From a virus, in IMG/VR virus record IMGVR_UViG_3300025168_000428, positions 1 through 29,836 of that record: a stretch of DNA of 29,836 nt, one strand, 5' to 3'. Positions 7,187 to 22,904 of this stretch are shown here, piece by piece (within the stretch, counting starts at the first letter, position 1; every line of letters begins with the position of its first letter). The notes under the pieces were generated by a model. The model saw only the letters and a list, made by a program, of their open reading frames with translations, made no database searches and had not been told where the DNA came from. A program made the position numbers and the translations under genes.

Positions 7187-8062
7187 ATGGCTTTAGAATA
7201 CGGATTCACAGACAAAGAAAAAATAAACTATTACCAACCAAGTAAAGTTTATAGTAGTTTCGGTAAAGATACTACCAATGACTATATTGCATTATATGTC
7301 TATGATATTAATGATACTCTGCTCGTAACAAGAATAATGGGATTGGATGAAGTTGAATTTACCAATGATGGTTCTTTTGTTGATTTGGATATTGGACAAC
7401 ACTTAAGAACATTAGGTTTTAGACAAGGTGACTTTAAGGTTACTTATAAATTTTTAAGAAGATTGGCAGGTAGACCAAGAAGTATTTTTGTTAAAGATAA
7501 TGGAACTATATTTAAAGGTGAAGCTGAAAGAAAAATAATTAACGGAGAAATAAGATACTTTCAAAAAACATCTGATGAACAAAAATCAAATTCAGAACCT
7601 ATGGAAGTATTTATTAAAGAACAAAAATATATAATTTCTCAAACTTCACCTGACAAAACAGAATTAAATATTACAACTGACAACTTAGTTACGAATGCAG
7701 AATATTTAACCGACTTTAAAGAAATGAATGCTATGATTGAATATAGTGCAATTGAAGCAGATAACTCTGGATTAATTAAATTTGACTCAAAAGACCAAAA
7801 TGTTTTAGAGTTTGATATCAATTCAAAGGATAGAGGATTCACACAAAATATGGTAGGTGGACAAATTATTATACCAAGTCTATACAAGATTACAGGTAAT
7901 GAAGATACAACAAATGAAGATACTTCACCACCACAACAAGACCCAATTACTGAAGATGAATATAGAGAATTAACACAGGAAGAGTTAATTGAATTAGCTT
8001 CACAAGGTGATGAAATAGCAGATATGACACTTCAAGAACAAGCGGCAGACGAACAATACTAA
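7187..8062 (+). CDS. Unknown structural protein in the baseplate module
   Basis: A 291-residue protein that looks beta-rich. The N-terminal half alternates short strands (YIALYVYDINDTLLVTRIM; DFKVTYKFLRRLAG), and the C-terminal about 50 residues are very acidic and low-complexity (EDTTNEDTSPPQQDPITEDE, then Glu/Gln-rich). No catalytic or membrane motif is seen. A weak AGGGTAAC ribosome site precedes the ATG, and the stop overlaps the next large gene by one base. Its position between gp6 and the giant tail protein suggests a T4 gp8-like or connector role, which I cannot confirm from sequence. Confidence 0.7.
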   Translation: MALEYGFTDKEKINYYQPSKVYSSFGKDTTNDYIALYVYDINDTLLVTRIMGLDEVEFTNDGSFVDLDIGQHLRTLGFRQGDFKVTYKFLRRLAGRPRSIFVKDNGTIFKGEAERKIINGEIRYFQKTSDEQKSNSEPMEVFIKEQKYIISQTSPDKTELNITTDNLVTNAEYLTDFKEMNAMIEYSAIEADNSGLIKFDSKDQNVLEFDINSKDRGFTQNMVGGQIIIPSLYKITGNEDTTNEDTSPPQQDPITEDEYRELTQEELIELASQGDEIADMTLQEQAADEQY

Positions 8063-10926
8063 TGGCTAGAACAAGAACAGAAGAAAGAATGGGAGAAACT
8101 TACGGAGAAGCATCCGAAGGACGTAGCTCAAGAAAAAATCAAGCGACTTCTAATAGAGCGCCATCAGGCGGTGGTGCACCACGTTTACCCAAACAACCTA
8201 AGATAGAACAAATAACTGAGGAGAAGGATACTTCACAGCCAGGTAATGCCGCAGCAAATATTGCAGCAGCATACACACCAAAACCACCAAAAGCTGTAAC
8301 TGAAGCAGAAGTAAAGTCTGAAATAGTAGCAGTATGTTTGAGGGGACAACCAACACCATCACCAATTAAACCATTGGTTATTCCAGCACCAGCAATTTTA
8401 CCACCAACAGTAATTCCAGAAAAATCTACCAAGGATATAGGTGTTCAAACACCAATGCAAATAAGGTCAGAAACAAATTTAAGACCCGACGGAGTAACAG
8501 AAATTCTTGGACCAGGCGGAGTAGTATTGGAAGAAATCGGTGGAGATGGAAGAGTTCTCGTTGACCCAATAAAAGATGTAGGATTTGACCCAAAAGACCC
8601 ACCACCAGCTATTCAAGCACTTAGAGAAGATTTTGCAGAACACGTAGCAACAGGTAAAGATGAGGCAGGAGAAGTATTTGAGGCAAAGCCAGACACAAAG
8701 AAAGCTTTAAAGAAAGCTGGATTAGAAAGATTTATTCCTAAAGTTCCTAAAAAAGTTATTGAATCCACTACTGAAAATGAAGGTGGTCAAAAAGGTGGTA
8801 CGGCAAAAGAAAAAATTATAACCACGACTCAGGCACAAGTAAAATTAACACCAAGAGATTATGTAGCAACAATTACAGAAGTCTTAGATAGTAATCGTGT
8901 TCGTGTTTCGTTATCATATAATGATGGAGTAAATCAATATCAACATAAGGGTGATGATGAAGTAGCAAAGAAATTTAAAAACTTCCGAGTCAATTATATA
9001 AATAATAATATTGAACGATACAAAACCTATATGGTAAAAGATAATCAATATTATTTAATTACAAATGAAGAACTTGGAGCAAGTGGTAAAGAAAGATTTG
9101 TTAAATTAAAACAACCACTACAAGGTACAGATGTAGATGATAAAGTTTTATTTGTAGAAAAAAGACTGCCAGACTATAAGGATATCGTTACATTAAATCC
9201 ATTTGTAGAAGCAGAAGACAGCAGTATATTTTTAAGAATACCAAATTTAAATTCAGTTGATAATCCAATTGACTTTCAAGGAACTAATTATAAAAGTCAC
9301 GATGGGTTGTTAAGTAATAAAGATGATGACGCAAGAGATATTGAAAGATTATTAACATCGGGTAGTTTATTAGATGTTCAACCAAATATTGATTATCAAA
9401 AAACAACAACTGATTTATCAATAGAAAACGATGATACAGGTTTTGGAAACTTTGTTCATTTCTCAAATGCAGAAAGAAGACTTATTAATTTTAAAGAAAA
9501 ATTAACATTGATTGAAAGTCATAGTGCAGCTAGTGCTTCATTAACAACAATATCAAGTTCTGCTAACACAAGATTAGATTTACAAAGAAAGAAACAACGA
9601 GTGATTAATTCGTTTGACCCATATGAACATTATTTATATTTTGAAAGTTCATCTTACGTGAGTTCATCAGACGGACAATTCCACGATACAGCTTGGCCTA
9701 AATCAAATTCATCTTCACCATTTACATTACAATCAACAGGAGATGCTTCAAGTTGGTACAACTCTATGATATCAAGTGCTTCTTCTTATGACCAAGGAAA
9801 TATGAATTCATTGAGAAATTCATTACCATTACACATTAATCAAGATACTGAAAATAATGTATTCTTAGAATTTATGGATATGGTCGGACAACAATTTGAT
9901 GAGATATGGACTTACACAAAATCCATTACGGATGTTAATATAAGGGTAGAAAAGTTATCAGAGGGTATATCAAAAGATGTAGCACAAAATTATGCACGAG
10001 CACTTGGATTAAACTTAACAAGTGGAAATGATTTGGTAAATTTACCTGAATATCTATTGGGTAATGATGTTGATGGAACTTCAGTATTTGAATCACCACA
10101 AGAAGCCGTAACCGAAGAAATTTGGAAAAGGATATTAGCAAACTTACCTTTCTTTATTAAATCAAAAGGAACGGAAAGAGCATTAAAAGGATTATTAAAT
10201 TGTTATGGTATACCGAGTTCAATATTACGAGTAAGAGAATATGGTGGACCAGATAAGGGAACACGAGTTAATTATGAAATTAAAAGAAAGTTTACACGAG
10301 CAACAGACTTTAGGTCTTCTCAATTTGTTAAATCACATTGGAAAACAGCCGCAGACGGACAAGTTCCTGATACGATAGAAGTTAGATTTAGAACACCTAA
10401 ATCACAAGACCAAGTCATATTACAAAAAGATAATGACTTTGCTATTTCATTACAAGACAATGGTTCAACAGATGATTATGGATTTTTAAGATTCGAAATA
10501 AGTGGTTCAGACCAAGTGTATGACCAATTTATAACTTCATCGACATTACCATTTTATAACGATGACTTCTGGTCAGTAATGTTAACAAGAAAAGATACAA
10601 GTGGAAATGAAGTTACCGATGATAAGATATTAAGTCAAAGTATTTATGAATTAACAACAAAACAATATGATTCAACAAGACAAAGAATTTTATACCAATC
10701 AAGTGAAAGTTTACAAACACACACTTCAAGTTTAGCAACTGATGTAAACAACATAACAGGTAGCCAATTAAATGCAGCATACACATCAAGTGGACACATT
10801 TATCTTGGTGGTAGTGGTAGCGCATTTGGTGCTAACACATTTACAGGTTCATTAATGGAGTTTCGTGTGTGGTCAGAACCATTGAGCAGCATACACATCA
10901 AGTGGACACATTTATCTTGGTGGTAG
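8062..10926 (+). CDS. Giant tail/baseplate protein, N-terminal part of a frame-broken gene
   Basis: Encodes 954 residues before a premature stop caused by the 112-bp tandem duplication at 10774-10998. The N-terminus (1-150) is a Pro/Ala/Gly-rich disordered tail. The middle contains beta-rich and Ser-rich stretches. Residues about 687-730 (LPFFIKSKGTERALKGLLNC onward) resemble the helix-rich core of P2 gpI-like tail proteins, which usually follow gpW and gpJ equivalents, as here. Residues about 755-941 form a LamG/concanavalin-like sandwich ending GHIYLGGSGSAFG and GSLMEFRVWSEPL. The last 12 residues are out-of-frame sequence from the duplicated copy. Position and size recall T4 gp7 (about 1030 residues). 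With one repeat copy removed, 8062-12283 is a single 1369-residue frame. Confidence 0.75.
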   Translation: MARTRTEERMGETYGEASEGRSSRKNQATSNRAPSGGGAPRLPKQPKIEQITEEKDTSQPGNAAANIAAAYTPKPPKAVTEAEVKSEIVAVCLRGQPTPSPIKPLVIPAPAILPPTVIPEKSTKDIGVQTPMQIRSETNLRPDGVTEILGPGGVVLEEIGGDGRVLVDPIKDVGFDPKDPPPAIQALREDFAEHVATGKDEAGEVFEAKPDTKKALKKAGLERFIPKVPKKVIESTTENEGGQKGGTAKEKIITTTQAQVKLTPRDYVATITEVLDSNRVRVSLSYNDGVNQYQHKGDDEVAKKFKNFRVNYINNNIERYKTYMVKDNQYYLITNEELGASGKERFVKLKQPLQGTDVDDKVLFVEKRLPDYKDIVTLNPFVEAEDSSIFLRIPNLNSVDNPIDFQGTNYKSHDGLLSNKDDDARDIERLLTSGSLLDVQPNIDYQKTTTDLSIENDDTGFGNFVHFSNAERRLINFKEKLTLIESHSAASASLTTISSSANTRLDLQRKKQRVINSFDPYEHYLYFESSSYVSSSDGQFHDTAWPKSNSSSPFTLQSTGDASSWYNSMISSASSYDQGNMNSLRNSLPLHINQDTENNVFLEFMDMVGQQFDEIWTYTKSITDVNIRVEKLSEGISKDVAQNYARALGLNLTSGNDLVNLPEYLLGNDVDGTSVFESPQEAVTEEIWKRILANLPFFIKSKGTERALKGLLNCYGIPSSILRVREYGGPDKGTRVNYEIKRKFTRATDFRSSQFVKSHWKTAADGQVPDTIEVRFRTPKSQDQVILQKDNDFAISLQDNGSTDDYGFLRFEISGSDQVYDQFITSSTLPFYNDDFWSVMLTRKDTSGNEVTDDKILSQSIYELTTKQYDSTRQRILYQSSESLQTHTSSLATDVNNITGSQLNAAYTSSGHIYLGGSGSAFGANTFTGSLMEFRVWSEPLSSIHIKWTHLSWW

Positions 10927-10998
10927 TGGTAGCGCATTTGGTGCTAACACATTTACAGGTTCATTAATGGAGTTTCGTGTGTGGTCAGAACCATTGAG
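10774..10998 (+). repeat. Exact 112-bp tandem duplication inside the giant tail gene
   Basis: The segment starting GCAGCATACACATCAAGTGG at 10774 is repeated exactly from 10886, with a period of 112 bases and no mismatch that I can find; copy two ends at 10998 (CCATTGAG, then TGCAAG). The flanks differ (T before copy one, A before copy two), so the boundary is sharp with about one base of microhomology. Since 112 is not a multiple of three it shifts the frame and splits the LamG-containing gene. Both copies encode the same final strands of the LamG domain. It may be a real tandem duplication or a short-read assembly artefact. Confidence 0.95.
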
Positions 10999-12283
10999 TG
11001 CAAGTGTATTCAACAATCACGTTAGAGCACCAAAGTCATATAACGGAAATAGTATTTCATCATCATACGATGACTTATTAGTTCGTTATGAATTAAATGA
11101 CAACAAGAATTTACAATCATCACCAACCTTTTCAAACTCTGCACATTTAAAAACATATGAGTTAGGAACTTCTGGTAGTGATGTTAATGGGTTTACGGGT
11201 AATTTCTCAAGAACATTAGTAGACCAAGAAAAATTAAGAGTACCAGATATTGGTGGTGTTCGTAGAAATGCTACGAAAGTTAGAATCGAGGACTCGATTT
11301 TGACAGGAAACTTGAATCGTAATAAACCAGTACAAAAATCATCACAAGATTTTGCACCAATAGATAGTAATAAACTTGGTATTTATTTTGCACCAACTGA
11401 TGTAGTGAACGAAGACATAATGTATAGTGTAGCAGACTTTGACTTTGATGATTTTATTGGTGACCCAAGAGATGAATTTAGAGTAAATTATCCAGAATTA
11501 AGAAGTGTTCGAAGAGAATATTTTAAACGATATACGAATACAAATAACTTCTTTGATTATTTAAGAATACTAAGTTTCTACGACTCAAGTGTATTTACAC
11601 AAGTAAAGAATTTAGTTCCTGCCAGAGCAAAAGCTTCAGTCGGTGTGTTGATTGAACCAACTATTTTAGAAAGAAGTAAACAGATTGTTGGAGATAGACC
11701 TGAATTTGATAATCGTTATTTTGAAAATGCAGGACACTTTGGTGAGGGAATAAAGGTAACAAGATATATAACAGGTTCAGCTGATAATTATTTCGAAACA
11801 AGTGGTGAATACAATACATACAATGGTGAAATTAATTTAAATAATAGTACAGGTTCATCATTAGGATTTTTAAATCAACGCTCTTTAATGGTGTTGGACG
11901 CATTAGACCCACGAAGTGAATTTGGTTCATTATACGCAACAGCAAGTGTTTCTCGAGGAACAAGTAATAAAATATTTACAGAAACATTACAACCAAATTT
12001 AACGGCATCAAGAGCAGCAGAAAATAATCAAGAAGAAGTATTCTTTTATTCAAGTTCATTGAGTGCTTCAATAGGAGAGTCGGTAGCATATAGTTCATCA
12101 TTTATAACAAGTGATTTACAGAGTATTGCATATGATTCACCGCTATTTAGAACATTTTACCTCGGAACAAAACTTACAAGAGATAACACAATAGATGGAA
12201 AAGAACCTATTGAGATTAACCAAGTATCACCAACAACAATAGTGACACAAGATTCAGACATAACTAAACTAAGAACGGATTAA
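10967..12283 (+). pseudogene. C-terminal part of the giant tail/baseplate protein (frame-shifted)
   Basis: The in-frame continuation of the gene starting at 8062, moved to another frame by the 112-bp duplication. The first ATG in this frame, at 10967, lies inside the LamG domain (MEFRVWSEPL, present in both copies), has no ribosome site and is unlikely to be a true start; the frame is open back into copy two at about 10886. The 438 residues complete the LamG domain and continue with the segments FDYLRILSFYDSSVFTQVKN and VPARAKASVGVLIEPTILER, then Ser-rich beta sequence. There are no decayed codons or further stops, so either the break is recent or it is not real. Confidence 0.75.
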
Positions 12284-13079: not shown

Positions 13080-14123
13080 ATGTCAACATTTCAAATATTT
13101 GATAAAGAAAATGATGTAGTTGAAAATCAAAGAACAACTATCTCAAGTGGATTATGGACAGGTGGTTCAGGAACTTTAACCGCAGCATATACACAATCTA
13201 CAAATGGAAATATTACAGGTTCCTTTTTAGATATCTATAACGAAGACCCAAATCTTTCAAGTTCAGCAGAAGTCCAATACGCAGTTGGATATGCACACTT
13301 TGACGGAAGTGGTTCAAGAGGTAACACAACTAAATTAACAACAGGTGGTAGACAATCAAAAGCATTGTATAGTCAATTCAGAAATGTATTGTTAGCACCA
13401 AACACAGATAAGTTTGAATTTACATCTTCACCAACAGCATCAGGCGATAAAGACTTTTACTTTGTTTCGTTCCAAAGAGCAAGACAAAGAGAAAAGATTG
13501 ACCCAGGAAATTGGGAATTACATTTAGCAGGAGCAATGCCAGCAGGTGATACACACGATAGTAAAATTAAATTAATTGATGATAGTGGAGCAGGAGCAAA
13601 TGTTACCGTTAATCAAGGTGGTAGAGTATTTAATGTTGTTAGTGGTTCAGTAGCAGGTGGAGTTAATGTAACAGCAGCAGCTGAAACAGCATTCGGTGCT
13701 TATGGATTATTTTATCCCGACTTAGGATTAATATTATTAAATGCTAAGATGGCTGAATTGAGTGGTGGTTTAGCAGCTAATCCAAGAAGTGCAGATGCAT
13801 TTGACAACAGACCACAAGCATTCTATAACTCAATTGAATCAGGTTCATACTTTGCAGCTCGTAGAGAAGAAGAAATTAGTTCAACGAATTACTTTGTTCG
13901 TGTTAATAACAAGAGATTTAACTTTAGTTCTAATCCAACATTTGCAACAGGTTCGGATGGTTCTTTAACTCAAGCTACTTTCTTTAAAGACCCTAAAACT
14001 TTTATTACACAAGTTGGTCTTTATAATAATGAGAATGAGTTATTGGCAATTGCTAAGTTATCTCAACCTTTACTAAAGTCATATTCAAGGGAAGCTATTA
14101 TTAAAGTGAAACTTGATTTTTAG
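13080..14123 (+). CDS. Tail protein A, shares its C-terminal domain with the next gene
   Basis: A 347-residue beta-rich structural protein with AAGGAG eight bases before the ATG. Gly/Ser/Thr-rich strands run throughout the N-terminal 250 residues. The last 45 residues (PKTFITQVGLYNNENELLAI, then AKLSQPLLKS and IIKVKLDF) match the end of the next protein position by position: 'VTxIGLYxxxNELLAxxKLxxP' then 'VxxD'. This ending resembles the closing segment of tail or fibre proteins in T4-like and jumbo phages. The protein is probably part of the distal tail or fibre. There is no signal peptide and no enzymatic motif. Confidence 0.7.
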   Translation: MSTFQIFDKENDVVENQRTTISSGLWTGGSGTLTAAYTQSTNGNITGSFLDIYNEDPNLSSSAEVQYAVGYAHFDGSGSRGNTTKLTTGGRQSKALYSQFRNVLLAPNTDKFEFTSSPTASGDKDFYFVSFQRARQREKIDPGNWELHLAGAMPAGDTHDSKIKLIDDSGAGANVTVNQGGRVFNVVSGSVAGGVNVTAAAETAFGAYGLFYPDLGLILLNAKMAELSGGLAANPRSADAFDNRPQAFYNSIESGSYFAARREEEISSTNYFVRVNNKRFNFSSNPTFATGSDGSLTQATFFKDPKTFITQVGLYNNENELLAIAKLSQPLLKSYSREAIIKVKLDF

Positions 14124-14132
14124 GACAAAATA

Positions 14133-15116
14133 ATGTTCAAAAATCTTGAATTACAAGAATCAACAGTTAGACCTTTTAAAACTCATAAGAACTTTACATT
14201 TAGTAATAATGATAGTGGAAGTGGAATATGGGGAATAAAAGCTCGTAGTGGTTCTTTATACAATTACATAAGCGCATCAGACGCAGTGACTGAAGTCGTA
14301 TCGGGTTCAGTAACAACACGATATTTTTCATCACCAACTTGGCATATGTTAAATCAAACATTTTATGCTAATCACATAACAGCAAGTTATAATCCAGGAC
14401 TTATAAGTAGAAATTTAAATACATCTGCTTCAATACTAAGTGTTGGTAGAGATTTATTTGGGGAAGAAATAAAACCGGGTAGTCTTGACTTATCGGTAAC
14501 GATTGGTAGTGTAACTTTTGATATTAGAGATGATGGAGATGGTAATCTTTATGATAATGCACACTCTGCAAGTTTCTCAACATTTAAAACAAACAAATTT
14601 ACAAGTGGTAGTACAACTACTACAAATGCAGTAGGTAGTGGTAGTGAAGTCGGTAATATAATGTATGGTCAAGGACTATTAGTCTTTACTGATACAGGTT
14701 CTTACGCTGATGCAGCAACATCACCATTTACTTTAAAGTATCAAGCAACTCATACAATATATGAATATGAGTACCTTGTAAAAGCAAAACCTTTTGAATT
14801 TAATACTTCAACAAATATCAGTTTAACACCTGATAGAAGTGGTAGTATTACAGTAAAAGAGGGTGCGGTTTCAATGTCTAACTTCTTCCCACCAAGTCAT
14901 AATCCAAGTGGTCACGGAACAGGAAGTTATGCAACATTCTATAATGCAGCATCTGAGTCATTACCAATGGTAACTGGTTCAGAATTTAAACCATATGTGA
15001 CAGATATAGGTCTTTATAGTGAAGACAATGAACTATTAGCTCACGGAAAATTAGCAAAACCTATCAGATTAAGTGATGATATCGAGACGACTTTTGTAGT
15101 TCGTTTTGATGTATAA
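14133..15116 (+). CDS. Tail protein B, C-terminal paralogue of tail protein A
   Basis: A 327-residue beta-rich structural protein. It starts MFKNLELQESTVRPFKTHKN and is rich in Ser, Thr and Gly. Its C-terminus (KPYVTDIGLYSEDNELLAHG, then KLAKPIRLSD and FVVRFDV) is clearly homologous by eye to that of the upstream protein, pointing to duplication of an attachment or polymerisation domain on different bodies. It is the last obvious virion gene before the secreted-protein cluster; a 51-base gap follows. Confidence 0.7.
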   Translation: MFKNLELQESTVRPFKTHKNFTFSNNDSGSGIWGIKARSGSLYNYISASDAVTEVVSGSVTTRYFSSPTWHMLNQTFYANHITASYNPGLISRNLNTSASILSVGRDLFGEEIKPGSLDLSVTIGSVTFDIRDDGDGNLYDNAHSASFSTFKTNKFTSGSTTTTNAVGSGSEVGNIMYGQGLLVFTDTGSYADAATSPFTLKYQATHTIYEYEYLVKAKPFEFNTSTNISLTPDRSGSITVKEGAVSMSNFFPPSHNPSGHGTGSYATFYNAASESLPMVTGSEFKPYVTDIGLYSEDNELLAHGKLAKPIRLSDDIETTFVVRFDV

Positions 15117-15167: not shown

Positions 15168-18131
15168 ATGTTTCGTTTTATGAAAAAGATGGTTATAACG
15201 ACAGTTATGTTTGGATTTGTCTTTGCACAAAGTCCAATCATAAGGGTAAAACAAATTGGTGAATGGAAAACACCAGAGTATTGGTGGAAAGCACAGGAGA
15301 CTGTACAATTACAGACTTTCTTAGCTGATGATATATCAACACCAGCTTTTAAGAATAATAATTTTGATTCTTGGAGAGATGACATTTTAGAAATAGAAGT
15401 CACTCTTGACGATGTAGGACAAGATATTACTACATTTAGATTTGATATTGCATTTGACAACGATTTAATCACTTGGATTGAAAATGATGGAACTAATCAA
15501 GAAACATCAATCAATGCTTGGAGTCAAGGAAACTCACGAGTAATTGTGGGTTCACATATAGCAGATTGGACTGAAGGTGATGAAACATCAAATAATTCAA
15601 CTGACTATTCTTTTGAAGTAGTTCACTTTTCTAATGTTGGATACACAGACGCTATCCAAAGTAGTGGGAATGAAACTTCAGCACAGGATTCAGGCTATGA
15701 TTGGTTAAGAGTTACTATGGTAAGTCACGGAGTTGATGCTAATAGTGATGGAACACCAGATTTTACATTTGGTAATGGAAACGGAAATCAAGCACAAGTA
15801 TTAAAATTACAATTTAGAATTAATGATGTAGTTGATAATTATCAACCACGTTCATTTAGAATACCTACACTTTATAGTGGTGGAACTGGATACTATACTT
15901 TCGTATCCGATGACTACCTATTAGATTATAAAGTTTACATTGACGGAAACTTTGATACCGCAGTAGACAATACAGGTAATGGTGGAGCAAGAGGAGATAT
16001 TTCTCTACATCCAAAACTTGTTGATGTTGAAGGCTTCGGTAGATACATTGGTGAATGGGTTGATGTAAATGGAGATGGAGTAAAAGATTCAGGTGATGAC
16101 TTTGAACAAAAAACTTATCCTTATTGGAAAGTTGTATTTGAGTTAGATGAAAATAATCCTGATACAGACGGAAACGGAACCGCTACACCATTCCCTACTT
16201 GGTATAATATAGAAGATGTTGCTGATGATTCAAACACAGCAGACGAAGATTTATCTGATGATGTTATTGGAGATGGTAGTGGAACATATTACTATCTGAA
16301 AATGACCGACACAAACGGAGTAACAACATTAGCAGACCAAGCATTACCTGATAAAGGATTCTTAGGAGTATCATATTTTGATTACACCTATACGGATAAA
16401 AATGGATATTATAATATTCAATTACCAAGAAATAATACTTATCGTGTTTCTATCTGGCCACCAGACGCAGCAGATGATATTGGTCAACATACACAATTAG
16501 AATTGGATAGAGGAGCGATTACAAACATTAATGACGCAATCGCAGCATTTAATTTCCAATCAAACAAATTTGAAAATTCTAATGATATTAAAGTAGATTC
16601 ACCAAGTGCTTACTTAATTGGTGATGTAGACGGAGATGATGTATTCCAATTAAATGACGCATACTTTATATGGGCATATGTAAGTGGAGTATTTTCAACA
16701 TCATATACTCACATTAATGGAAACTCATATCAACAATGGTCAAGTATAGATAATTTAAAATCAAATGGAAGTGCACAAACTCTTAATTATTATCAAGCAC
16801 TTAGAGGTGGTGATACAAAACAAAGAAGAGAGTTTACATTATTTTTAGATGACGACTTAGCACAAGAAACAACATCACTAACAAAAGACGCTGGTGGAGT
16901 TGCTTGGTTTAATCCTTTAATGGATGATGTCGTAACAGGTATGGATACTTTACAAGTAAGTATTGGAGCAGGAACATCAACCTTTGATGACCCGGACATT
17001 ACTACTGATGGAGATGTAAATCCAGATTACACTTATGATGAGGTCGCAGTTTACTTTACAGGTGATATGAATTTATCAGGAACAAAAGTTCAAGAAAGTG
17101 GTGGTGATGGATATCAAGACGCATATGCAGGAACAACATATTATCGTTGGGCAACACACACGGTTCAAAACGGAAGTTCAGGAGATAACTCTTGGAATCA
17201 GAATTGTGTAAACGCATCTTGTGATGACGCACCAAGTGCTTGGACATACACAAATACAAATGGTGAATATGATGGAGCAAGTAAAATTATGGCTACAAAT
17301 TCAACACCCGATGTAAGTTTATCATTACCAGACGATGGAAGTGTTAAAGTTCAAATGGGTAACCAAGTTGTAGTTCCTTTGACAATTACACCTAATTTAG
17401 ATTTGGTAACAGGAGAACCTACTAAGATAGCAGGTTTTGAATTTGAGGTTAGATTTGATACTAATCAATTACAATTTATTGACGCTCAAACAGGACTTTT
17501 ACCAGGACCTTGGATGACTTACTTAAATGAAAGTGAGATTGATGACGAGGGATATAAAACAATTTCATTCGGAGCATTAGAAAATTCACCAAACAATGCA
17601 CCAGAGGACTATTATTTGACTGAAGAGTTAGTTGGACTACAATTAGTATTCAATTCACAACTTAATGAAAATAATAATCAAGAGTGGACAGAAGCTGACT
17701 TACAATTTGTAGGAAAAGCTAACGCTGGTAATCCAGCGGGTGATGATTTATTTATGGAAAGACAAAGTGGAAAAATAAACATATGGAATAAGTTTTGGGC
17801 ATTTGGTGGTGGACAACCATCAGAAGATGAGATGACTTATGTTTATCCAAATCCATATAAAGATAGTGAACATAGTTCAATTAACTTCCAATTCTATATG
17901 GAACAATCAGGTAATGTGATGATTAGTATATACAACGCTAATGGTCAAAAGGTTGGAACTTTATTAGATGAAGTTGTTAATGACGGAATGCACACATATA
18001 CTTTCTCAGACTTGCCAGATGCTTTCGGTGATGGATATGGTGGATATCAAGAATTAGATTCTGGTATTTATCTATTCGTAATGGAAACAGAAAACAAAAT
18101 TAAGTCTAAGAAATTTACAATAATTAAATAA
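15168..18131 (+). CDS. Secreted surface protein with T9SS type A sorting domain
   Basis: A 987-residue protein with a signal peptide (1-20, FVFA|Q21), so exported through Sec. Two beta-sandwich regions look cohesin-like: about 72-225 (DDILEIEVTLDD, FRFDIAFDNDLITWI) and about 715-872 (KIAGFEFEVRFDTNQLQFID). Residues about 451-507 look like a dockerin doublet: TNINDAIAAF, then GDVDGDDVFQLNDAYFIWAY with the Ca-binding Asp series. Further Asp/Gly loops (DVNGDGVKDSGDD at 299-311) look Ca-binding. Residues about 890-987 are a T9SS type A sorting domain: YVYPNPYKDS, ISIYNANGQKVGTLL, LDSGIYLFVM, ending KSKKFTIIK. T9SS carries such proteins across the outer membrane and anchors them or releases them. 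GGAG lies six bases before the ATG. The gene lies between tail genes and a PorV-like gene. It is unusual for a phage; a host-derived origin is likely. Confidence 0.85.
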   Translation: MFRFMKKMVITTVMFGFVFAQSPIIRVKQIGEWKTPEYWWKAQETVQLQTFLADDISTPAFKNNNFDSWRDDILEIEVTLDDVGQDITTFRFDIAFDNDLITWIENDGTNQETSINAWSQGNSRVIVGSHIADWTEGDETSNNSTDYSFEVVHFSNVGYTDAIQSSGNETSAQDSGYDWLRVTMVSHGVDANSDGTPDFTFGNGNGNQAQVLKLQFRINDVVDNYQPRSFRIPTLYSGGTGYYTFVSDDYLLDYKVYIDGNFDTAVDNTGNGGARGDISLHPKLVDVEGFGRYIGEWVDVNGDGVKDSGDDFEQKTYPYWKVVFELDENNPDTDGNGTATPFPTWYNIEDVADDSNTADEDLSDDVIGDGSGTYYYLKMTDTNGVTTLADQALPDKGFLGVSYFDYTYTDKNGYYNIQLPRNNTYRVSIWPPDAADDIGQHTQLELDRGAITNINDAIAAFNFQSNKFENSNDIKVDSPSAYLIGDVDGDDVFQLNDAYFIWAYVSGVFSTSYTHINGNSYQQWSSIDNLKSNGSAQTLNYYQALRGGDTKQRREFTLFLDDDLAQETTSLTKDAGGVAWFNPLMDDVVTGMDTLQVSIGAGTSTFDDPDITTDGDVNPDYTYDEVAVYFTGDMNLSGTKVQESGGDGYQDAYAGTTYYRWATHTVQNGSSGDNSWNQNCVNASCDDAPSAWTYTNTNGEYDGASKIMATNSTPDVSLSLPDDGSVKVQMGNQVVVPLTITPNLDLVTGEPTKIAGFEFEVRFDTNQLQFIDAQTGLLPGPWMTYLNESEIDDEGYKTISFGALENSPNNAPEDYYLTEELVGLQLVFNSQLNENNNQEWTEADLQFVGKANAGNPAGDDLFMERQSGKINIWNKFWAFGGGQPSEDEMTYVYPNPYKDSEHSSINFQFYMEQSGNVMISIYNANGQKVGTLLDEVVNDGMHTYTFSDLPDAFGDGYGGYQELDSGIYLFVMETENKIKSKKFTIIK

Positions 18132-18139
18132 GAGGGACA

Positions 18140-18997
18140 ATGATGAAAAAATTATTAAGTTTATTAGTATTAACAGGAACATTATTTGCACAAGCAAATG
18201 ATATCTTTACACTTAATCCAAGTGTAAATAGTGCCGGTATGGGTAATGTCGGTATAGCACACGCAGATGTAAGAAATGTATTTCACAATCCAGCCTTTGC
18301 AGGACTAAAAAAGACACATTACGAAATATCACACGTAAAATGGTTACCAAACTTATCAGATGATATGGGATATCAAAGTATGTTACACACTTCAGATATG
18401 GGTTGGTCAGGTGAAATATTTTACTTTGATTACGGAACACAAACAGAAGCTAATTCAGGCGGAATCATCATAGGTGATTTTGAATCAGCATCATTTAGAA
18501 TGAGTGGTGGTTATGGATTTGGATTCAACGATTGGTTAGTCGGAGCAAGATTAAATTTCTATCATCATAATTTTGTAGACGATATTGATATCGGTATGAA
18601 CTATGGATTTGATATCGGTGCTTACAAAGAGTTCGGTAATACATCAGTTGGTATCGTATTAAAAGATGTCGGTGGTGATACAGAAATATTAGAACAAACA
18701 CTTAATTTACCTATGTCAATAGGTGTTGGTGTTGGACAAAAATTTGGAGACTTTACATTAGCATCTGATGTTAAGGTATTTGAGGATTATAATTCGATTG
18801 GTATTGGTGGAGAATATTCACTTGGTGTCGCAAGTTTAAAAGCAGGATACTATACTGAATCAGAATTTGATGTTGATTACTTTACAATAGGTGGTGGCAT
18901 TAACGCAGGTATCGTAGACTTATCATTAGCATATTACTACAATACAGATAGTTTTCATAACGAAACTTTAATGATTTCATTTGGATTTAACTTCTAA
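18140..18997 (+). CDS. PorV/PorQ-like outer-membrane beta-barrel protein
   Basis: A 285-residue protein with signal peptide (LTGTLFA|Q18). The first mature segment, SAGMGNVGIAHADVRNVFHN followed by PAFAG, matches the hallmark of the PorV/PorQ (UPF0164) family, 'GMGxxGxAxxD...xxNPA'. The rest alternates aromatic-flanked strands with Gly turns and ends in a beta-signal-like LMISFGFNF. PorV is the T9SS shuttle that binds the C-terminal sorting domains of substrates and brings them to the attachment complex. Directly following a gene for a T9SS substrate, it may escort that protein. A second ATG at 18143 is also possible; GAGGG lies before both. It could instead be a general FCB-type barrel or transporter of the same superfamily. 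Confidence 0.72.
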   Translation: MMKKLLSLLVLTGTLFAQANDIFTLNPSVNSAGMGNVGIAHADVRNVFHNPAFAGLKKTHYEISHVKWLPNLSDDMGYQSMLHTSDMGWSGEIFYFDYGTQTEANSGGIIIGDFESASFRMSGGYGFGFNDWLVGARLNFYHHNFVDDIDIGMNYGFDIGAYKEFGNTSVGIVLKDVGGDTEILEQTLNLPMSIGVGVGQKFGDFTLASDVKVFEDYNSIGIGGEYSLGVASLKAGYYTESEFDVDYFTIGGGINAGIVDLSLAYYYNTDSFHNETLMISFGFNF

Positions 18998-19128
18998 TGG
19001 ATATCGTTGAAATATGGAATTCAATAGGATACTTTGACGGAATATTGTTTACAATATGGTTAGGGATATTGTATTATGGAAAATGTTGGATAGACAGCAG
19101 ATTTAAAGTTATTAATTATCATAAATAG
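18997..19128 (+). CDS. 43-residue membrane micro-protein
   Basis: ATG at 18997 overlaps the stop of the PorV-like gene (TAATG) and gives MDIVEIWNSIGYFDGILFTI, then WLGILYYGKCW and a short basic tail (KVINYHK). One aromatic-rich transmembrane helix is likely (about residues 9-31), with the positively charged end in the cytoplasm. Tight overlap on both sides of an operon of envelope genes supports reality. Function unknown; small phage TM proteins in such places are often holin-like, but nothing here proves it. Confidence 0.5.
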   Translation: MDIVEIWNSIGYFDGILFTIWLGILYYGKCWIDSRFKVINYHK

Positions 19129-19137
19129 GAAAATAAA

Positions 19138-19551
19138 ATGGCAAAACAAGTAGACGCAGAACAATTAGTAGATAATTTACAAAACGCAAAGTTTGGATTA
19201 TCAATACAAAACATAGTAGCTATCGTTACGGTATTATCATCACTTATAGCAGGTTGGTATACTTTTACAGGTAGAATAGATTCATTAGAAGAAGTGGTTC
19301 AAGGATTTGCAGAAGCAAGTGATATTGAATTAGTCGGACAGAAGTTAGATACTTTTGAAAAAGATATTGATTACCTTAAAGAAAGAATCGATTCTTTTGA
19401 AGGTGTTGATTTATCAGGTATCACAGGTGATATCATTAAGTTAGAAGCTGAAATTAAAGATGTTAAAAGAAATGCTAACGCAGCTCATAAACACATAGAT
19501 AAACACGAAGTGGATTTTCACGGAGACCCATTAGCAAAATTTAAAAAATAA
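19138..19551 (+). CDS. TM-anchored coiled-coil protein
   Basis: A 137-residue protein with one transmembrane helix (about 23-43, [20 protein letters not shown]), preceded by a short acidic N-terminus and followed by a coiled coil (about 48-115) with regular hydrophobic spacing. The C-terminal tail carries His117, His119, His123 and His128. Single-TM, coiled-coil architecture fits an inner-membrane spanin subunit or a chemotaxis-like signalling scaffold; it has no lipobox or enzymatic motif. It overlaps the ferredoxin gene by one base. The function is not established; a lysis or envelope role is inferred from the neighbours. Confidence 0.65.
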
Positions 19552-19838
19552 TGACTTTTATAATAACAGAACCGTGTATCGGAACTTGTGATACAGCTTG
19601 TGTGGATGTATGTCCAGTAGATTGTATTCACGGCCCAATAGATGTAACGGGAGCAGGAGCAGAAGTAGCAGGATTAAAAACATTAGATGGAATGCAATTG
19701 TATATTGACCCCGAAGAATGTATTGATTGTGGTGCTTGTGAGCCAGAATGTCCAGTTGACGCAATATATGACGAAGATGCTGCACCAGATGATATGCAAA
19801 AGTTCATAGAAATTAACGCAAACTTTTTCAAGGAGTAG
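19551..19838 (+). CDS. Bacterial-type ferredoxin with two Fe-S cluster sites
   Basis: A 95-residue ferredoxin, a small soluble electron carrier. First site: Cys9, Cys13, Cys17 and Cys21-Pro ([17 protein letters not shown]), with Cys25 also present. Second site: Cys57-x2-Cys60-x2-Cys63-x3-Cys67-Pro ([12 protein letters not shown]). The spacing Cys9-x7-Cys17-x3-Cys21-Pro matches the [3Fe-4S]/[4Fe-4S] seven-iron family (Azotobacter FdI type), but the usual fourth Cys at residue 12 is Thr and an extra Cys is at 13, so the first cluster is probably [3Fe-4S], perhaps convertible. The acidic C-terminal tail is typical. Phage-encoded bacterial ferredoxins are uncommon; the redox partner is not evident in the window. 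Confidence 0.93.
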
Positions 19839-19842
19839 AAAA

Positions 19843-20547
19843 ATGAAAAAATTATTATCACTATTAATAACAATACCTTTCTTACTTAGTTGTGCAACAA
19901 CATCATTAGAAGCACAATCAGGTAAATCAAAAGTTCAAACTAAAATAGCATCTTATGAGGCAGAAAAAACTCTTGATGATATCAAATGGTATGACGGAGA
20001 ACCTGAAGGTATTCAAATGATTAACATTAAAATACCACAAGAAATGGTTAATATGTATCCAGAACTTCGTGAGAAGAGAGTCGGATTCGGTATGACCAAT
20101 AGAATCATCGAAGCACTTGAAGAAGCTGGTCGTTTCTATTTCGTAGAAGAAAAGGATGAAATAATCGCTAAAATGGTTAAAGAGTGGGAACGTAGTGTTA
20201 ACGGAATGTTAGAAGAAGAAATAAGTGTCGGACAATTTGCAACTACTAAATACTTTATTTACGCAGAACTATATGACTTCTCAGTTTCTAATACAGAAGA
20301 AATTAAAAGAAGAAAAGTTAAAGTAAGTAACAAAACGAGTGTTGGTATTCAAGTTCGTTTAGTTTCAGTTGAAACAGGTAGATACATTACAGGTAGTGGT
20401 TTAGGACAATCAACAAAAGAAGGTGCAGGATTTTTAAAGAATCCAAATATGGAATTTGACCAATCAACGGTTTCATACGCAACAACAGGAGCAACCATCA
20501 CAGCAGTAGCAAACGTACTAAGACGTATGGAAAAACGAGGTTGGTAA
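19843..20547 (+). CDS. CsgG-family outer-membrane lipoprotein
   Basis: A 234-residue lipoprotein of the CsgG (curli secretion channel) family. The lipobox Leu14-Leu15-Ser16-Cys17 follows a 13-residue hydrophobic signal segment. Family features include MTNRIIEALEEAGRFYFVEE (helix then strand, as in CsgG), a segment on TTKYFIYAELYDF, the strand VGIQVRLVSVETGRYITGSG and a closing helix ending RRMEKRGW. CsgG of E. coli is 277 residues and forms a nine-fold outer-membrane pore. AAGGAG lies seven bases before the ATG. The neighbouring OMP-like and second CsgG-like genes suggest one complex. It may be a secretion pore, but CsgG relatives also serve as structural lipoproteins. Confidence 0.82.
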   Translation: MKKLLSLLITIPFLLSCATTSLEAQSGKSKVQTKIASYEAEKTLDDIKWYDGEPEGIQMINIKIPQEMVNMYPELREKRVGFGMTNRIIEALEEAGRFYFVEEKDEIIAKMVKEWERSVNGMLEEEISVGQFATTKYFIYAELYDFSVSNTEEIKRRKVKVSNKTSVGIQVRLVSVETGRYITGSGLGQSTKEGAGFLKNPNMEFDQSTVSYATTGATITAVANVLRRMEKRGW

Positions 20548-20552
20548 AATGA

Positions 20553-21548
20553 ATGAAATGGTTACTTACACTACTATTAATAGGTAGTTTATACGGACAA
20601 ACTCGAAACTCTGATTTCAGTTATAATTATGTAGACCCTTGTACCCAACAAGCAGTTAATCTTAATTATAAAACCGAAACAACCCAAGATGGATTTTGGG
20701 TTACCTATTACAATCAAAGAAAATTTTTTACTTGGGTAGAGGTAGCAGACGGAACATTACAGAATTGGACTGAACAAGTCTATTCGGATTTCCAAAGTTT
20801 GTTTCCTTGTGCGGTTAACATAGCAGAAGAAGCTATCGCATCAGTTGTTAGTTTAAATCTTCAAGGTGAATTTGACGAAGAAGGTGAGGATATATCAACA
20901 ACGGAACCAAGTTTTATTGGTGGAGATATAGTTTCCACTAAATATGAATGGGCTTGGGTTACATCATTGAACTCTACATATATGACAGAGAACTTTGATT
21001 TAACGAGAGAACAAAATTATACTGCTAACGTTACTACCAATGGTAGAAAGTTTTTAGGTTTGTACGGACAAGGATTCAAACTAAAAGCTAAAAAACAAAA
21101 TTTATTTTGGAATGTTGGTGGATTATGGTATAGAACTTTTGAAGGAGATGATTGGTTAATTACAGGCAATTATGGAAAAGTTCTAAAGAAAAGATTTAGA
21201 GAGATTGGATTAGTAAGTTCGAGTATCGGAAAGATATCAGGACAAGATTTCTTTAACGTAAACACAATGTACGGATTCCAAACCAGAGTTCCTATTAGGG
21301 ATACAGATTTGGTTTTGCAAACATTTGTGAGTTACACGGTATTTAGATATTTTGAGGGATTAAATCAAGAAACTAAATACTTATTATTAGAAAGTCCGAT
21401 ATTGATTTATCCTGGCTTTAGTTTAGATATTCCTTTTGGACAATCTTTTAAACTAAATGTTGGATTTAATATTGGATATAACACATTGGTTAATGACTTG
21501 GGTGATAGAAATGTTACTTATTCATTAGTCATAGGAACTAACTTTTAG
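20553..21548 (+). CDS. Putative outer-membrane beta-barrel protein beside CsgG
   Basis: A 331-residue protein with signal peptide (LLTLLLIGSLYG|Q16). The N-terminal domain (about 20-100) contains DPCTQQAVNLNY with two spaced Cys (about 29 and 90), possibly disulfide-bonded in the periplasm. The rest is amphipathic beta strands with aromatic girdle residues (NLFWNVGGLWYRTF, DLVLQTFVSYTVFRY, FKLNVGFNIGYNTLV) and a C-terminal VTYSLVIGTNF that reads like a BAM beta-signal. It sits between two CsgG-like genes and is probably a partner channel or anchor. An ATG at 20549 belongs to a dead frame, so 20553 is the start. Confidence 0.65.
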   Translation: MKWLLTLLLIGSLYGQTRNSDFSYNYVDPCTQQAVNLNYKTETTQDGFWVTYYNQRKFFTWVEVADGTLQNWTEQVYSDFQSLFPCAVNIAEEAIASVVSLNLQGEFDEEGEDISTTEPSFIGGDIVSTKYEWAWVTSLNSTYMTENFDLTREQNYTANVTTNGRKFLGLYGQGFKLKAKKQNLFWNVGGLWYRTFEGDDWLITGNYGKVLKKRFREIGLVSSSIGKISGQDFFNVNTMYGFQTRVPIRDTDLVLQTFVSYTVFRYFEGLNQETKYLLLESPILIYPGFSLDIPFGQSFKLNVGFNIGYNTLVNDLGDRNVTYSLVIGTNF

Positions 21549-21556
21549 GAGTGAAA

Positions 21557-22198
21557 ATGAAAAAGATATTAGATACAATATTTTCTGATAACGGAGAGTT
21601 TGTTGTTCGATTTTTATTTGCAGTAGTGTGTATGGGATTTTTAACAGCTAATCTTTTTGGTCAAATGACTGAAACAGACAAAGAAATCACTAAACAAGAG
21701 CAAAGAGATAAACGAGTAGTAAGTAATCTTGTTGGACAAATGCCACAACCAACTATGGTTGATGAGTTAAAAGTCCCTACAATGAGTATATCTAATTTTG
21801 TAAATCAAGCAGAAATAGAGGGTCTTGAAGATTCAAGAGTTTTTCTTGGTGTCAGACAAATCCTTACTGAAAATGTAATGGATTCGAGATACGATTTAGT
21901 TGAAGGGAATTCAGACTTTGAAATGAAAGCTAGAGTAGTTTATTTAGGTAGACCGAGAACATCAGCAACGATTTTAGGATTGTTTAAAAGAGAATCAACA
22001 ACAACAGAAATTAGAGTTGTGGTTGAATTGATTAATAAAAAAACAGGCAAAGTAGTTAGCGGTAATGGTGTAGGATTTACCAAAAGAGATATAAGTGCTA
22101 CCGGGTTACAAATAAATGAAGATTTACCTTTTGATAGAAGTGAGCTTGGTGGTGCATTGAAAGAGGCCATCGGAAATGCAGTTAAAGAAATATTATAA
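21557..22198 (+). CDS. Second CsgG-like protein, signal peptide but no lipobox
   Basis: A frame also open from GTG 21551, but AGGAG at 21547-21551 sits five bases before the ATG at 21557, so a 213-residue product is chosen. A long N-terminal signal (about 16-36, ending TANLFG|Q) follows a charged 15-residue head. The mature part keeps the CsgG order: a first strand TMSISNFV, a segment with ARVVYLGRPRT, a strand TTTEIRVVVELINKKTGKVV, then GNGVGFTKRDIS and a C-terminal helix GALKEAIGNAVKEIL. It has no lipobox Cys, unlike the neighbour at 19843. It may form a heteromer or stack with the lipoprotein. Confidence 0.68.
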   Translation: MKKILDTIFSDNGEFVVRFLFAVVCMGFLTANLFGQMTETDKEITKQEQRDKRVVSNLVGQMPQPTMVDELKVPTMSISNFVNQAEIEGLEDSRVFLGVRQILTENVMDSRYDLVEGNSDFEMKARVVYLGRPRTSATILGLFKRESTTTEIRVVVELINKKTGKVVSGNGVGFTKRDISATGLQINEDLPFDRSELGGALKEAIGNAVKEIL

Positions 22199-22904
22199 AG
22201 ACATAGTATCATTAATGGCAACATTGTCATTATTGGCTACTGTTCTTTTTATAAACAAATATGATGTGAAACAATTGTATCGTGAGTTTGCAACTCTGCG
22301 ATTAAAAGTAGATATTCAAGAAAAAGTAATTGCTAATTTAGAAGATAGAGTTTATAATTATTCTAAACAATATCGTGAATTACAAGTAGAACTTGAAGAG
22401 CATAATAAAACTCGTGGTATTGAAAATGCAGACTTGTATGAAAGACTAAGAGAACTTGAAAGAGAGATATTAGTCCTTTCAGATATGGTTGCTAATAGAA
22501 AACCTGATACAGTGTTTTCAGCAGGAAGTGATGTAAGAGAATTCGTTGACAGACAAGAAAATCGATTAGGATTTTATGAAACTCAAGGAACAGCATTACT
22601 TGGTTGGAAAGATGATTATTTAACAACGTCTCAATTTAAATTGAATACGGTTGGTAATCTTACATTACAACCAAAAATAAAAAAAGTCAATAAAGATGAA
22701 TTTTATTCATATATTGATGAAACAAGTATTGGTGGAATAACAGTTCACGGACAAGGTGAAATACAAAAAATAGAACCACCAAGAAATCAATTAAGTCTTG
22801 GCCCATTTATAGGAGTTGCATACAACCAAACAACAGGTTTAACAGAACCAATTGTTGGAATTGGATTAACATATAATCTAATTAAAATTTGGGATTGGAG
22901 ATGA
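22176..22904 (+). CDS. TM plus coiled-coil protein, possible i-spanin
   Basis: A 242-residue protein that starts 23 bases inside the previous gene, with GAGG before the ATG. One transmembrane helix (about 10-27, IVSLMATLSLLATVLFIN) is followed by a long coiled coil (about 33-105, rich in Leu/Glu/Arg) and a C-terminal beta domain ending LSLGPFIGVAYNQTTG and GIGLTYNLIKIW. The N-terminal TM helix and periplasmic coiled coil suit an inner-membrane spanin, and similar endings (G.F.GV...VGIGLTY.L) occur in Rz-like proteins of Bacteroidota phages, as I recall. An alternative is a tether for the CsgG pair. No partner o-spanin lipoprotein of usual small size is obvious. Confidence 0.55.
   Translation: MQLKKYYKDIVSLMATLSLLATVLFINKYDVKQLYREFATLRLKVDIQEKVIANLEDRVYNYSKQYRELQVELEEHNKTRGIENADLYERLRELEREILVLSDMVANRKPDTVFSAGSDVREFVDRQENRLGFYETQGTALLGWKDDYLTTSQFKLNTVGNLTLQPKIKKVNKDEFYSYIDETSIGGITVHGQGEIQKIEPPRNQLSLGPFIGVAYNQTTGLTEPIVGIGLTYNLIKIWDWR

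Follow-up and report, generated by a model that had tools for sequence, protein, structure and literature searches.

The window analysed here is a 29.8-kb virus record (29,836 nucleotides), and its genes include matches to baseplate wedge subunits. A run of plus-strand genes at 15168–22904 encodes, in order, a 987-residue exported protein, a PorV-family barrel, a transmembrane (TM)/coiled-coil protein, a ferredoxin, CsgG1, a second barrel, CsgG2, and another TM/coiled-coil protein. The run thus encloses csgG1 (19843–20547, 234 residues), the barrel gene (20553–21548, 331 residues), and csgG2 (21551–22198, 215 residues, start codon GTG), all on the plus strand. The gap between csgG1 and the barrel gene is 5 nt and that between the barrel gene and csgG2 is 2 nt. 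The three genes are real, and their positions and order are exactly those given in the initial annotation. Upstream of the run, the sequence MEFRVWSEPLS occurs within 10880–11000 at the end of the open reading frame (ORF) 8062–10926 and again at the start of the ORF 10967–12283; this short duplication may break up a single large structural protein or be an assembly fault. Two adjacent tail-region proteins (13080–15116) share a similar C-terminal domain.

Two TM/coiled-coil proteins flank the three genes. The upstream protein, tmcc1 (19138–19551, plus strand), has an N-terminal TM segment and a coiled coil, gives weak coiled-coil and holin-type matches, and is conserved in 14 loci. It stands where gp16 stands in other phages. 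Members of the gp16 family (e.g., L056:9690–10007) have a single TM segment and a Pro-rich periplasmic tail, which in the members inspected ends in, for example, EEPxW with a C-terminal Trp. Between tmcc1 and csgG1, inside the module, lies the gene for a 2[4Fe-4S] ferredoxin (19551–19838, plus strand; PF00037, E 2.2e-11) that is specific to the subgroup of the window (11 loci). The downstream protein, tmcc2 (22176–22904, plus strand), is conserved in the subgroup, and its gene overlaps csgG2 by 23 nt. Its anatomy is spanin-like, with an N-terminal TM segment, a coiled coil, and C-terminal beta-like strands; it matches the Rz-like spanin phrog_739 (E 1.6e-4), mostly over the TM segment and the coiled coil. 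The protein encoded at L046:3225–3851 looks unrelated to tmcc2 but shares its plan, with an N-terminal TM segment, a periplasmic part, and C-terminal amphipathic beta-like strands. Proteins of this plan are possibly a kind of spanin-like protein whose far end sits in the outer membrane.

CsgG1 carries a lipoprotein signal in this phage, with the lipobox L14-L15-S16-C17 (residues 14–17; 19882–19893, plus strand) behind the signal peptide. By sequence, CsgG1 of the window gives no convincing match in Pfam, PHROGs, NCBIfam, or the PDB, and direct sequence and profile searches of the PDB with CsgG1 and CsgG2 give no useful match. The AlphaFold2 (AF2) model of CsgG1, built from 35 relatives (pLDDT 78.1), has the CsgG fold. 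CsgG structures are the top matches of the model by Foldseek (E 2.7e-8), and VIA aligns 146 residues of CsgG with a Z of 12.3 and an rmsd of 3.8. PelC follows CsgG in the VIA list (Z 10.1), and then come envelope proteins such as LptE and TraT (Z 7.8).

The HMM search proposed in the initial annotation finds no match to the CsgG family PF03783 for CsgG1 or CsgG2 of the window, both of which fall below the Pfam cut-off. Four of the 35 CsgG1 relatives match PF03783 (best E 8.5e-5), and a chromosomal relative from Ignavibacteriales exceeds the cut-off (28 versus 20.8 bits). Comparison of CsgG1 with a profile of 12 true CsgG proteins by hhalign is not significant (P 1.3, E 0.041), nor are those of true CsgG with CsgG2 and with the barrel. 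Low profile diversity may account for this result, which leaves kinship possible, and CsgG1 and CsgG are likely distantly akin. The description of CsgG1 as a CsgG-family lipoprotein therefore holds for the fold and the lipobox, and fails for membership of PF03783. A lipobox-like motif is present in just 14 of the 35 relatives, so lipidation varies among them, and the pairing of a lipidated with an unlipidated protein, suggested initially, is not supported as a general principle.

CsgG makes a multi-subunit barrel with two transmembrane hairpins, the trait used here for comparison. The CsgG1 model has a long hairpin (residues 137–175, with strands at 137–155 and 158–175). A polar or acidic run at about residues 149–152, SEDE in most relatives, is conserved in this hairpin and argues against a lipid-facing strand. 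The hairpin is a poor transmembrane candidate. It is doubtful that CsgG1 forms a membrane channel of its own, and the polar run suits a soluble ring better.

CsgG2 (plus strand) has a hydrophobic signal and lacks a lipobox at the cleavage site, as noted initially. Sequence comparison identifies it as a diverged paralogue of CsgG1. It matches the CsgG1 family by hhalign (P 98.3, E 1.7e-14), and CsgG1 and CsgG2 match each other by tblastn in several loci (E ~1e-5). Iteration caused the csgG1 and csgG2 HMMs to merge, and members were assigned by best score; the un-iterated comparisons support the paralogy. The relatives of CsgG2 resemble YajG: 12 of 36 match PF03923 (Lipoprotein_16/YajG; best E 1.9e-4), which CsgG2 of the window itself does not, and one matches the TraT family weakly (E 0.028). 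CsgG2 is thus CsgG-like in that it is homologous to CsgG1, and none of its 36 relatives matches PF03783.

The protein encoded between them is predicted to be an outer-membrane barrel, as its description as barrel-like had suggested. Its N-terminal domain has two invariant cysteines, C30 and C86, and is followed in relatives by a low-complexity linker. In the AF2 model (pLDDT 73.7 overall, ~80–92 in most strands), residues 121–330 (20913–21542, plus strand) form a barrel of 12 strands with a C-terminal F. Outer-membrane barrels are its structural matches. The best Foldseek match is the amyloid exporter FapF (E 7.5e-5), and the model has the FapF-type layout of a 12-stranded barrel with an N-terminal extension. 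However, VIA ranks CymA (Z 19.4), NalP (Z 17.4), EspP, and OmpG, so that porins and autotransporters equal or beat FapF in similarity. In addition, the protein has no sequence match to FapF in NCBIfam, and no fap genes are seen. The safe identification from the model is an outer-membrane barrel of about 12 strands.

The first gene of the run (15168–18131, plus strand) encodes a candidate cargo. This 987-residue protein, conserved in loci L002, L004, and L005, has a signal peptide, a dockerin-type loop, a cohesin domain, and a type A sorting domain of the type IX system (T9SS). The dockerin-type calcium loop DVDGDDVFQLND (residues 486–497; 16623–16658, plus strand) has a short match to the C-terminus of the gp13 type in the isolated Flavobacterium phage immuto (E 2.3e-4, P 44.5). 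The cohesin core (residues 724–776; 17337–17495, plus strand) matches PF00963 (E 1.3e-5) and, by hhalign, the cohesin region of immuto gp15 (P 91.9, E 7e-7). The sorting domain (residues 892–985; 17841–18122, plus strand) matches TIGR04183 with 34.2 bits (E 1.9e-8), above the cut-off of 23, which marks the protein as T9SS cargo. Directly behind this gene, in the window and in 11 related loci of its subgroup only, lies the gene for a PorV/PorQ-family barrel (18140–18997, plus strand). It reaches 90.2 bits with NF033709, against a cut-off of 90, misses the equivalog cut-offs of both PorV and PorQ, and has no match among the collected phage records. T9SS is found in Bacteroidota and relatives (PMC7468147). 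The T9SS signal and the PorV-type sequence point to a host of this phage in that range.

Similar exported proteins occur in the related loci. Among 52 related cargo proteins, cohesin (20), the T9SS sorting domain (16), and C-type lectin (10) are the commonest domains, followed by laminin-G (4), PA14 (3), dockerin (3), and GLEYA (2). A dockerin-type loop (pattern D.[DN].[DNST].{6}D) is present in 86 of 108 cargo proteins versus 22 of 446 other proteins from the same loci, and signal-like N-termini, by a crude rule, in 124 of 128 versus 106 of 446. The iterated HMMs of cargo, gp14, and gp13 also merged, with members assigned by best score. Most cargo proteins have no detectable T9SS domain, indicating that the CsgG/barrel set is independent of T9SS cargo. 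CsgF and curlin-repeat partners are absent from the annotated ORFs of the 29.8-kb window and from the recurrent neighbors in related loci. The initial statement that no curlin is visible is therefore correct, but the cargo it left open now has a candidate in the exported cohesin/dockerin/T9SS protein.

A scan of viral contigs with the single CsgG1 sequence finds no relative, whereas a scan with the CsgG1 alignment finds at least 425, of which 80 were kept. Loci were fetched via csgG1 or csgG2 only. The contigs are partly redundant, and counts by cluster are more reliable. Among the viral contigs, each of the 53 whose flanks are long enough has csgG2, the barrel gene, a TM protein, and cohesin/dockerin/lectin cargo nearby, and every part is present in all 15 CsgG1 clusters formed at 80%. 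The genes csgG1 and barrel lie on the same strand in 86 of 86 cases, with a median gap of 5 nt. That all 53 full-flank viral loci carry the gene set rules out chance as its source. A shared complex, with the barrel as partner as suggested initially, is likely, because CsgG1 and CsgG2 are members of a single CsgG-related group and co-occur with the barrel. Other recurrent neighbors are a 281-residue low-complexity protein with an N-terminal hydrophobic stretch (13 loci; L040:11169–12014) and a DNA/RNA non-specific endonuclease (nine loci; L036:13989–14588).

Scanning 84,980 species genomes with a pattern gives three bacterial loci. With a profile, one genome is hit among the 295 of the class to which the Flavobacterium genome belongs, and two are hit among the 149 of the Ignavibacteriales class. 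The Flavobacterium locus is a 12.6-kb contig with further module genes and a peptidoglycan-binding, lysin-like ORF, and is possibly a phage. Since bacterial loci are few and one of them may be a phage, the family is mostly viral. In an Ignavibacteriales metagenome-assembled genome, a chromosomal csgG1–csgG2 pair (L090:9929–11232) is followed by genes for a large exported protein, a CHASE2-type protein, and a 428-residue protein that by eye looks barrel-like. The pair is a possible cellular source. The 428-residue protein was rejected as a relative of the barrel: its layout is alike, yet it does not match the barrel profile, and that profile, searched without a positive control, matches none of the 149 genomes of the class.

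Phage immuto carries the module as gp13–gp19. Gp13 is lectin- and dockerin-like, gp14 is dockerin-like, and gp15 has a cohesin and, by eye, a T9SS-like C-terminal tail; gp16 is the TM protein, gp17 is CsgG1, gp18 is the barrel, and gp19 is CsgG2. Gp14 and gp16–gp19 are annotated as hypothetical only. The C-termini of gp13 and gp14 are one dockerin-like domain (E 2e-12). The N-terminus of gp14 does not match the cohesin of gp15; gp14 was therefore dropped as a cohesin adaptor, and that step of a cellulosome-like chain falls.

A large phage group, whose hosts appear to be Bacteroidota-type bacteria, carries the conserved set, and the encoded proteins probably act jointly, remodeling or opening the infected cell's surface. 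Our preferred reading, held tentatively, is a ring-and-barrel device resembling PelBC and FapF that serves the co-encoded surface proteins. CsgG1 and CsgG2 would be subunits of a periplasmic ring or collar at the outer membrane, beside or beneath the 12-stranded barrel, as the PelC lipoprotein ring lies beneath the PelB barrel. PelC is among the VIA matches of CsgG1, and PelBC is a precedent for a lipoprotein ring combined with a separate barrel; such an arrangement appears to fit better than a membrane channel of CsgG1. The inner-membrane protein with a periplasmic tail (gp16; tmcc1 in the window) would link to CsgG1, CsgG2, and the barrel. The device would help Sec-exported cohesin, dockerin, and lectin proteins to cross the outer membrane or assemble on the surface, and in the subgroup of the window the cargo would additionally use a T9SS signal and a PorV-like shuttle. 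The infected cell would thereby be coated with adhesive proteins made by the phage, which could block superinfection or hold neighboring hosts. The analysis shows the co-conservation, the predicted folds of CsgG1 and the barrel, the cargo domains, and the signal-like N-termini; we infer the ring, the physical association, the role in export, and the benefit to the phage. Several points count against such a device. T9SS-tagged cargo should exit via the T9SS of the host, which would leave CsgG and the barrel needless for such cargo, and endolysin and small two-TM genes are common neighbors, which fits lysis. The nonsignificant hhalign comparison of CsgG1 with true CsgG and the equal or greater similarity of porins and autotransporters to the barrel also count against it. 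A bolder version is rather doubtful: a widespread phage organelle in which an envelope-spanning ring-and-barrel complex builds a cellulosome-like cohesin/dockerin/lectin array, using its own exporter and a borrowed host type IX system.

Lysis is the strongest competing explanation. CsgG-fold rings, the barrel, and the proteins with TM/coiled-coil tails may permeabilize or fuse the envelope late in infection, as an outer-membrane stage of lysis. In 27 of 88 loci, a GH19 or peptidoglycan-binding endolysin is encoded no more than 9 kb away, but on the strand of the module in only 14 of the 27, about half being on the other strand. Small two-TM proteins are encoded on the same strand in 40 and 36 loci, but none of the small TM proteins has a holin match. 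Gp16, which has one TM segment and a Pro-rich tail with a conserved Trp at its end, and the spanin-like tmcc2 are suited to this role, and lysis has been suggested for phage CsgG, namely CsgGF of phage Melnitz (PMC9004378). The ever-present cohesin/dockerin/lectin cargo, however, has no obvious role in lysis. We consider this explanation unlikely, with real weight nevertheless, because endolysin and small TM genes recur beside the module.

It is improbable that the module acts in surface or superinfection exclusion without export, TraT-like rings and displayed lectins blocking receptors or the DNA entry of competing phages. The cargo domains are of sugar-binding types, but the TraT matches of CsgG1 and of one CsgG2 relative are weak, at a level that common arrangements also reach, and the barrel and the TM tail are left unexplained. 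The initial annotation had CsgG1 and CsgG2 build a single channel together, stacked or mixed, and made the barrel their partner, which amounts to a joint pore in the outer membrane. Their paralogy and the long hairpin of the CsgG fold agree with such a pore, which we regard as equally improbable given the polar run in the hairpin, the lack of conserved lipidation, and a barrel that may itself already supply a pore. That the proteins end on virions or serve adsorption is very unlikely: in the window, baseplate and probable tail genes precede the module, but its proteins have signal peptides and T9SS signals, and in immuto it adjoins nucleotide-metabolism genes.

CsgG genes in marine phages have been puzzling, since neither their cargo nor their role is clear. 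The module adds a second, large phage group, in which CsgG-fold pairs always occur with a barrel and candidate cargo. Immuto and Flavobacterium sp. LMO8 are an isolated phage–host pair, which makes the question testable. If the ring-and-barrel device is real, phages rebuild the outer surface of the host during infection with export and adhesion proteins of their own, partly via the type IX system. The literature searched, in which subscription journals are mostly missing, contains no description of the module; it covers CsgG in pelagiphages and relatives and, in one paper, phage T9SS cargo.

As the initial annotation stated, CsgG genes are known from marine T4-like phages, and they are real precedents: CsgG and CsgF of pelagimyophages and of Melnitz are accompanied by curlin-associated proteins (PMC7029224, PMC9004378). 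The module shares with this curli exporter the CsgG1 fold, coding by T4-like phages, and a likely outer-membrane location. It differs in having two CsgG-related paralogues and a separate barrel, optional lipidation, other cargo, and a window protein outside PF03783; the CsgF and curlin-repeat partners present in HTVC008M and Melnitz are not seen in the window. In Caulobacter and Brevundimonas phages (L106 and L107), a CsgG-like gene lies between those for a small exported protein and a repeat-rich exported protein. The exopolysaccharide exporter PelBC (PMC12141448) shares the principle of a CsgG-fold lipoprotein ring, dodecameric in PelBC, with a separate outer-membrane barrel, but the barrel of the module has 12 predicted strands instead of 16, there are two CsgG-related proteins, the proposed cargo is protein, and Pel enzymes are absent. 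FapF shares the order of N-terminal part, linker, and 12-stranded barrel, and is one among many barrel matches. YajG/Lipoprotein_16, the weak match of CsgG2 relatives, is a family of unknown function. Like cellulosome-type assemblies, the co-encoded exported proteins have cohesin and dockerin-like parts; unlike them, the module is phage-encoded and has lectin-type domains instead of enzymes, and its cohesin/dockerin pairing is putative. The one report of T9SS cargo in a phage, Cryophage (PMC7468147), shares phage-encoded T9SS type A sorting domains and PA14; it names cargo genes only, and CsgG, curli, and cohesin are absent from its text.
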